A stretch of 38,015 bases of DNA from Candidatus Magasanikbacteria bacterium CG_4_10_14_0_2_um_filter_37_12. Lineage in GTDB: Bacteria > Patescibacteriota > Patescibacteriia > Magasanikbacterales > UBA922. The number at the start of each line of letters is the position of its first letter. Position 1 is the stretch's first letter. The notes beneath the pieces were generated by a model, which was not told where the DNA came from, made no database searches, and saw only the letters and a list, made by a program, of their open reading frames with translations. The translations under genes and the position numbers were made by a program. The stretch covers positions 1 to 38,015 of the forward strand of contig PFPK01000016.1 in NCBI GenBank assembly GCA_002793015.1, written 5' to 3'. This document shows positions 5,371-7,425 of the stretch, piece by piece.

Positions 5371-7425
5371 TTATTTCAACATTGACAAAAAATGTGTTTC
5401 ACTAAGTATTTCAACACCAAGACTCTTGGCCACCCCATACTTACTCCCTGGGTTATCTCCAGCTACAACAAAATCAGTCTTCTTACTCACTGAGCCACTA
5501 ACACTTCCACCAGCCATGCGGATTTTTTCTTTGGCTTCGTCTCTCGTGATAGTTTGTAAAGTTCCTGTCAACACAAAAGTCTTCCCAACCAAGTTTCGAC
5601 TTTCGACTTTCGACTTTCGACTTTCGACTTTCACACCATTCTCCATCAAATCCTCAATCAACTTCTGATTTTCTCCATTTCTAAAATACTCAAAAATAGA
5701 CTTAGCAACTCGTGGGCCAACATCATTAATTTCTTCTAACTCTTCAAAATTGGCATTCATTATTTTTTCTAAACTACCCCAGCCAGAAGAGAGTAGCCCT
5801 CCTTTGGTGGAAAAATGTTCAGCAAGCGCAATGGCAGTCTCTTCCCCGACGTGATGAATGCCAAGCCCAAAAATAAAACGATTCAAAGACACTTGCTTTG
5901 CTTTTTCAATTGCGTCAACCAAATTGTCAGCAGACTTCTCAGCAAATCTTTCCAAAGGCTCTAGGTCACCTTTTGTCAGAGTAAAAATATCAGCTACATT
6001 TCTAATAAGCCCTTCTTGCATAAGATGTTCGACAATCTTTTTTCCAAGCCCATCAATATCAAAAGATTTTTTGGAAACAAAATGGATAATATTTTTTAGT
6101 TCTTTGGCATAGCATTGTTTATTTGTACAAATCAAAGCCACACCGCTTGCCCCTTTATCTCCTATCTCATATCTCTCTATTTCTGAGTGACAAATAGGAC
6201 ATTTCTTCGGCATCACTACCTTCTTTTCACTACTATCTCGCATCTTATCCAAAACTCGAACAACTTTTGGAATAATATCACCGGCTTTTTCTACAACAAC
6301 CATATCGCCCAATCGTACACCCAATCTTTCAATTTCATCAAAATTATGGAGAGTAGCATGAGTGACTGTTGTGCCTGCCAATCGTACAGGCTCCATCAAA
6401 GCTACAGGTGTCAAAGTGCCAGTACGACCAACTTGCCAATAAATATCCACAATCTTGGTTGTTCCTTGCTCTGCTGGAAATTTCATCGCAATAGCCCAGC
6501 GTGGTGCTTTGCCAGTAAACCCTAGGGCATCTTGATATTTTTTTTGATTAACTTTAATCACCAAACCATCAATCATAAATTCTTTCTTTTTATGATCACG
6601 GTCAATCCATTGTTCATACATTTTCCAAATCTGATCTATATTTTTACAAACTTGCCAATCATGATCAGTCGGGAAACTAAGAACATCTAATAATTCTAAT
6701 TCTCTCTCTTGTGATTCTGGCATATCACCACCAGAAATATCATAAGTAGTTAATGACAATTTTCTTTCCGCCACTATCTTTGAATCAAGCTGACGAATAG
6801 TTCCTGCCGCCATATTTCTCGGATTGGCAAAAACTGGCTCGTTGTTAGCTGTTCGTTGTTTATTAATCAGCGCAAATTGTTTCTCCCCGATCCAAACCTC
6901 GCCTTCTACCACCAAGTCAATTTCTTTTTTCAAAACAAATGGCACGCTCTGAATTGTTTTGATATTTTGAGTAACATCCTCGCCAACTCTGCCATCTCCT
7001 CTAGTAGCTGCGACAATTAGTTTTCCTTTTTTGTAAGTAAGCACAATATGTAGCCCGTCAATTTTTAATTCCGAAGTGTAACTCAAATCTTTTGGTCGTT
7101 CACCAAACTTTTTTTCTAAAATTTTCAAAATTCTTTCTTCCCAATCATCTAAATCCTCTCTATTGAACGCATCATTAAAAGACCATTGTGAGACAGTATG
7201 AACTACTTTTTCAAACTTTTCCAAAGGTTCTCCTGCCACACGCTGGGTTGATGAGTCTGGAGTGACTAACTCAGGGTGTTCTTCTTCAATTTTTCGTAAT
7301 TCATCCATCAGACCCTGATACATAGCATCAGTAACTTGGGGATCGTTAAGAACATGATACTTGTAGCGAAGATCGTTTATTTGGGTGCGAAGATTTTTTA
7401 TTTTTTGTTTTATATTTTCTTTCAT
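5371..7425 (-). CDS. ligA: NAD-dependent DNA ligase
   Basis: 684 aa; KIDG nucleotidyltransferase motif, Cys4 zinc finger, HhH and C-terminal BRCT. Confidence 0.97.
5594..5634. repeat. 7-bp tandem repeat (TTTCGAC)x5 inside ligA
   Basis: Five perfect copies of TTTCGAC, 5594-5628, followed by TTTCAC. Confidence 0.97.

Follow-up and report, generated by a model that had tools for sequence, protein, structure and literature searches.

Heptanucleotide tandem arrays in the LigA linker and in other protein loops of Magasanikbacterales

Introduction

Rickettsia palindromic elements are repeated DNA that has been inserted in genes and is tolerated there in frame. PARCELs are 25-residue domains located in ORFs without assigned function (PMC2996958). 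Bacterial heptanucleotide repeats are covered by the terms LSSR and STRR, and the sets presented in passages of PMC4692102 and PMC4679880 are the STRRs of Calothrix and Nostoc, the GGGAATC repeats of Xanthomonas and the LSSRs of Mrazek et al. 2007. In the same passages, 7 bp is given as the favored LSSR unit length, polymerase slippage is proposed as its cause, and an idea that relates 7 nt to polymerase contact is cited from Mrazek et al. 2007. The heptamer repeats of Xanthomonas are 89-93% intergenic (PMC4692102), and the TAACTGA direct repeats of Beggiatoaceae (7 bp, 2-6 copies per set) are mostly found immediately before start codons, and their forward translation contains stops (PMC4679880).

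The arrays analyzed here, among them one in the gene for an essential DNA ligase, are similar to LSSR and STRR in that short runs of head-to-tail 7-bp units are enriched over other periods and occur many times per genome (35 in 381 kb). However, the known LSSR and STRR sets are dominated by a single unit or a few units and lie mostly between genes, whereas about two-thirds of the present arrays are in genes, with many different units and repeated hits in the same loops of essential proteins. The Beggiatoaceae TAACTGA repeats are likewise 7-bp direct repeats, but they have one unit, in contrast to the many units found here in frame inside genes. With Rickettsia palindromic elements and PARCELs, the arrays share the presence of repeated DNA in frame within permissive parts of proteins; unlike those elements, most arrays have no dyad symmetry and no fixed sequence or length, and there is no gain of length in LigA. 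Contingency-locus SSRs, which are associated with phase variation, are also tandem repeats within ORFs with a unit that is not a multiple of 3; nevertheless, the genes in question here are the housekeeping genes ligA, mnmA and ileS, not dispensable surface genes. Because a change of one unit would be lethal in these essential genes, switching is not a plausible role. Our literature search found nothing on heptamer arrays in Patescibacteria or Magasanikbacteria, with most subscription journals outside its coverage; relative to that literature, coding arrays with many units at orthologous sites would appear to be a variant not found described.

Results

The array in the ligA linker

The window, i.e., the whole stretch of 38,015 nucleotides that was analyzed, includes the following two features.

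5371..7425, minus strand: ligA, NAD-dependent DNA ligase, 684 aa (ORF and alignment to PDB 2owo, E=1.3e-162)
5594..5632, minus strand: perfect heptamer array, (GAAAGTC)5.6 on the coding strand, 13-aa peptide in the HhH-BRCT linker of LigA

On the plus strand, positions 5594-5632 read TTTCGACTTTCGACTTTCGACTTTCGACTTTCGACTTTC, a perfect TTTCGAC array of 39 bp (5.6 units, 100% match). A sequence-only reading had reported an in-frame TTTCGAC array between the HhH and BRCT regions of ligA; this is confirmed for the minus-strand ORF, although the proposed end at 5634 overshoots the actual end by 2 bp. PDB chain 2owo (DNA ligase, 671 aa) aligns to residues 3-683 of LigA, and the LigA match from the scan of named genomes was one relative, a Candidatus Magasanikbacteria assembly, with 63% identity, which places the present genome in or close to this lineage of Patescibacteria. 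Dimers of the unit are matched 10 times in the window with no more than two mismatches, compared to an expectation of 0.32, and none of 100 shuffles reached 10; thus, the ligA array is not a chance occurrence.

The same reading held that the element had a special design, open in all six frames. It is correct that the peptide VESRKSK is read in all three sense frames and FRLSTFD on the other strand; however, any unit of 7 bp would yield a single cyclic peptide in the three frames, 7 not being divisible by 3. Among the near-perfect arrays located in ORFs of at least 150 aa, 11 of 26 have an antisense stop, near the 36% obtained for random sense-open heptamers of the genome, and none of the nine near-perfect non-coding arrays is free of stops on both strands. 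Filtering therefore acts on the coding strand alone. A sense stop was flagged in three arrays; these are unit mixtures or short arrays in ORFs that remain open. The six-frame openness of GTCGAAA is thus not a general feature of the arrays but an incidental one.

Heptamer arrays across the genome

The genome (G000) comprises 870,869 bp in 48 contigs. Period statistics rest on 381 kb, i.e., 44% of it, and on 0.02-0.2 Mb per relative; ORFs were called mechanically, and the thresholds for degenerate arrays, while arbitrary, were applied equally to every period. A mismatch-tolerant scoring scan of the 381 kb detected 35 arrays of period 7, compared to 2, 7, 4 and 1 arrays of periods 6, 8, 9 and 10, respectively, and second-order Markov simulations produced no period-7 arrays. 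The peak at period 7 is found in many relatives too, the density among relatives being 0-146 arrays per Mb. In favor of chance (low complexity) or of an artefact of assembly as the source of the arrays, the fragmentation of the genome into 48 contigs could be cited; given the simulations, and the recurrence of in-frame arrays at the same sites in many independent assemblies, the probability of such a source is close to negligible.

Most of the arrays are in genes: 25 of the 35 lie inside ORFs, 6 over ORF ends and 4 are intergenic, with ORFs accounting for 89% of the sample, and over the own genome and the relatives the fraction inside ORFs is about 65-70%. The mainly intergenic placement reported for the Xanthomonas and Beggiatoaceae sets, which describes those known sets and does not define the class, is therefore not seen here. 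The unit of the ligA array recurs as well. Dimers of GTCGAAA with at most one mismatch were found 19 times in the whole genome, compared to 4 for a backward control pattern, and cluster on contigs C1, C14 (the window, at ligA and at two positions within mnmA), C15, C18, C21 and C33. The earlier idea of a gene-tolerated micro-repeat is supported by this recurrence and by the fraction of arrays inside ORFs; the genome-wide search it had proposed found arrays in several genes, and not, as it had allowed for, nowhere outside ligA.

The own-genome units are diverse, including AAAGTCG, AAGTCTG, AAGTCCG, AAATTTC, AAATTGG, AAAATTG and many that occur once, and KFQISNFKFQ is among the recurring array peptides in ORFs. 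A single element with its own sequence, as originally envisaged, does not fit these dozens of units, and a single mobile sequence was rejected on account of this diversity. The GTCGAAA monomer occurs outside arrays at its expected frequency, with no enrichment; a dispersed motif, such as an uptake sequence or a binding site, was rejected on this ground. Besides the arrays in ligA and mnmA, the window contains the following:

4223..4239, minus strand: short GTCAAAA array inside ORF 3544-5001
8722..8751, minus strand: (AATTTTC)4.3 array encoding NFQFSIFNFQ in a glycosyltransferase-like ORF; the antisense strand has stops
8936..8966, minus strand: AGACTTC-type array in the same glycosyltransferase-like ORF, peptide FNFQTSDFR
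22286..22464, no strand assigned: heptamer-rich stretch, largely intergenic, with AATTTTTAATTTGA, AAATTGTAAATTAC and related units, stop-bearing

The stretch 22286-22464, which adjoins mnmA, is also rich in 14-mers, has a 52-bp unit repeated twice and contains many stops. Non-heptamer arrays, apparently between genes, are present at 34370-34398 and 34093-34132, with ACTAAACAAA (10 bp) and TAGGTATT-like units.

Pairs of arrays have the same unit at a rate of 0.0247 within a genome and 0.0098 between genomes, a 2.5-fold difference, compared to 0.0018 for random heptamers; the excess within genomes is partly due to neighboring arrays in one gene. Such sharing could point to a mobile or copy-paste micro-element, i.e., to arrays copied between loci by ectopic conversion or a yet unrecognized insertion activity, similar to palindromic elements that insert in genes. 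The GTCGAAA arrays in LigA, MnmA and other ORFs of the own genome, the AAAGTAG unit at two loops of G019 LigA, and palindromic elements found also at MnmA loop 1 and at an IleRS site (see below) are all in line with copying. Nonetheless, a copied element is difficult to reconcile with dozens of units, variable copy number, the lack of constant flanks or ends, and no net length gain in LigA or at IleRS sites 684 and 849, and we regard it as improbable.

The LigA linker among relatives

We compared the linkers of 49 LigA orthologues from the same family and order, counting as an array any with a score of 10 or more. Period-7 arrays were found in 13 of the 49, compared to none of period 6 and three of period 8. 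The unit usually differs between genera: GTCGAAA is present in the own genome and in G008, AAGAAAC in G015 and G052, AAAGAAC in G010, AGTAGAA/AGTATAA in G019, AAGAATY in G007, AAGACAT in G029, AAAACTT in G020 and ACAAGTT in G022, and the arrays of G031, G035 and G056 are more degenerate. The linker segment measures 24.2 aa with an array and 24.0 aa without one. The array had been described as an insert, and an alignment with close relatives had been suggested as a check on its precision; this alignment shows no insertion that adds length, with linkers of about equal length in 2owo and the approximately 36 array-free relatives.

On a LigA tree computed without the linker, the array label requires 10 changes, at least 6 of which are forced by well-supported branches, and no significant clustering of the label was detected among the 49 orthologues. 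The linker arrays are in phase across genera: 3.29 of 7 positions match in a fixed register, compared to 2.49 under random rotations (P=0.00015, or 0.00055 when two close relatives are left out). In array-free linkers, a weak 7-periodicity remains (z=3.0 compared to codon shuffles). The agreement in phase reflects either an ancestral array with concerted unit turnover, as G007, G029 and G020 suggest, or a phase dictated by the protein.

Extended to the whole phenomenon, the former reading states that the LigA linker, and perhaps other sites, have been heptameric since the ancestor of the family or order, while the unit drifted and was homogenized by frame-keeping slippage or conversion, with phase and length kept. 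In addition to the common register and the residual periodicity, it draws on the constant length of the linker and on the sister lineages G007, G029 and G020, in which three different units occupy one register at equal length. Yet perfect arrays of 28-39 bp are distributed across lineages with 30-35% amino acid divergence, genomes with and without arrays alternate on the LigA tree, the length of the MnmA loop varies strongly, and the phase could also be fixed by protein constraint on the linker. Arrays of such age are thus a possibility that we hold only tentatively.

Selection on the linker peptide, with the heptameric DNA as a by-product of an old protein motif, was weighed as well. A loose conserved pattern, GV[KR][IV]....K, is present in the linker, and G019 encodes nearly the same peptide, IESIKYKVESRK, by slightly different DNA, namely AAAGTAG/AAAGTAT units in the same register. 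The combination of one peptide with diverged DNA, which the sequence-only reading had named as evidence against its micro-repeat interpretation, is therefore realized in part; most relatives, however, have quite different peptides of the same length. Moreover, the DNA periodicity is far stronger than the peptide pattern needs, and period-7 DNA occurs genome-wide with unrelated peptides. The diversity of units already largely refutes this explanation, and we consider it very unlikely.

Of 26 further Patescibacteria loci, only L179 had an array in its LigA linker; in three of the 26, the linker pattern was not matched. A phylum-wide habit was accordingly rejected, and the phenomenon is concentrated in this order. 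In the linkers of L021, L026, L031, L158 and L159, arrays of period 8 take the place of period 7 (e.g., AAGTTGAC and AAATAAGC types). A second LigA site, after LTAYDIS, has arrays in 4 of the 49 orthologues (L022, L025, L030 and L081, with units AAAGTAG, ATATCAC, CAAGACA and GACATAG), whereas the LigA of the window has no heptamer array after LTAYDIS.

Loops of MnmA and IleRS

22462..23565, minus strand: mnmA, tRNA 2-thiouridylase, 367 aa
23146..23180, minus strand: GTCGAAA array in loop 1 of mnmA, spanning a predicted beta-hairpin
22784..22816, minus strand: decayed GTCGAAA-type patch in mnmA loop 2, SQKSIKSKVDND, in a low-confidence loop of the model
22563..22597, minus strand: decayed GTCGAAA-type patch in mnmA loop 3, LQKSKVTKSLKSKVFV

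The sites in LigA, MnmA and IleRS were chosen for their own-genome arrays (IleRS 210 and the second LigA loop, for arrays of relatives); therefore, the array frequencies at these sites are not those of random loops. Altogether, 224 kb of LigA, MnmA and IleRS genes and relatives contain 65 period-7 segments, compared to 2 of period 6 and 10 of period 8. AlphaFold models MnmA with a mean pLDDT of 89.6, placing array 1 on a predicted strand-turn-strand (129-134, 140-145; block pLDDT 91-96) and patch 2 in a low-confidence loop.

In 9 of 30 relatives, loop 1 of MnmA (TGHYA...KDQTYFL) contains an array; unlike the LigA linker, this loop is longer with an array (40.0 compared to 31.9 aa). Within one genus (79-87% DNA identity), this loop contains GGGGAAT in G009, GTCGAAA/GTCAAAA in G033 and an inverted ACGTAAC pair in G067. 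The inverted ACGTAAC pair of L162 (G067) is shared by L138 (G021), which belongs to a different genus, with predicted hairpins of -25 and -40 kcal/mol, respectively, and the congeners of G067 have quite different loop 1 arrays. An exchange of loop alleles between genera is possible for this pair.

Arrays near residues 210, 684 and 849 of IleRS were found in 4-5 of 30 relatives at each site, and those at 684 and 849 are length-neutral, as in LigA. Most LigA and IleRS-684 arrays have a purine-rich coding strand, which does not apply to three of the four found at IleRS 849 (between VRQPL and ELNVK). For example, GTCGAAA has the purine-rich sense in LigA and is reversed at the strand-like IleRS 849 site of G005, such that array orientation follows the need of the protein. 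In L052 (G062), a GTCGAAA array directly follows the HQIPVWY stretch of a valyl-tRNA synthetase-like ORF.

Palindromic elements also occur at array sites. MnmA loop 1 contains an in-frame palindromic element in L151 (CHCEERSDEAIS from GTCATTGCGAGGAGCGAAGCGACGAAGCAATC) and in L141 (SFPRRRESS from TCATTCCCGCGAAGGCGGGAATCC), and a perfect 13-bp stem, GTACGGACAGGTC/GACCTGTCCGTAC, is located near residue 684 of IleRS in G005 (L204). The array-bearing loops of MnmA and IleRS are thus permissive, being open to repeated DNA of several kinds. Judged from its unit by eye, the GTCGAAA array has no hairpin arms, and inverted array pairs were found only in a few relatives (L138, L162 and L133). Compared to palindromic, REP or MITE elements, the arrays have neither dyad symmetry nor a family consensus, and length is gained at MnmA loop 1 but not in LigA. 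The likeness to Rickettsia palindromic elements suggested by the sequence-only reading consequently applies to the loops, which hold palindromic elements in some relatives, and not to a length-adding insert in LigA.

Discussion

On balance, we lean toward the view that heptanucleotide tandem arrays, a large class that includes the one in ligA, arise repeatedly in Magasanikbacterales and are then selected in permissive loops. Arrays would be born by local tandem multiplication with a preferred step of 7 nt, through replication slippage or template-switching repair. We infer that a birth event lays down several units together, often replacing sequence instead of adding it. Selection would then retain only arrays that keep the frame (net length a multiple of 3), are free of sense-strand stops and encode a peptide compatible with the local fold; survivors would be confined to linkers, surface loops and the turns of hairpins, and there older arrays may be supplanted by newer ones. 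We propose no function for the DNA repeat itself.

Ordinary stepwise slippage does not easily explain the in-gene arrays: since a single-unit slip (+/-7 nt) would throw essential genes out of frame, the events must involve several units or be compensated. It should be noted that two results count against parts of the favored scheme of repeated local birth. The conservation of LigA phase between genera speaks against independent births, unless the protein dictates the phase, and the excess of unit sharing within genomes is not predicted by plain local birth. No array birth with near-identical flanks was caught among the genomes compared, within-genus DNA identity being 79-87%. A more radical scheme would involve a process that overwrites unconstrained coding stretches with in-register arrays without net change of length, or one that keeps ancient in-frame arrays with concerted unit turnover, such that parts of essential proteins are continually rewritten with a limited vocabulary of 7-letter words; we put this forward as a speculative and rather doubtful proposition.

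Heptamer repeats have so far been described as intergenic curiosities, with slippage guessed as their origin. At the orthologous sites in essential proteins, dozens of parallel cases are available for which phylogeny, frame and fold are known; where the 7-nt periodicity comes from, and how well proteins tolerate it, can thereby be tested directly. The arrays also carry a warning: VESRKSK, NFQFSIFNFQ, GLQTSDFRLQ and similar peptides in Magasanikbacteria reflect the dynamics of DNA repeats, not protein function.
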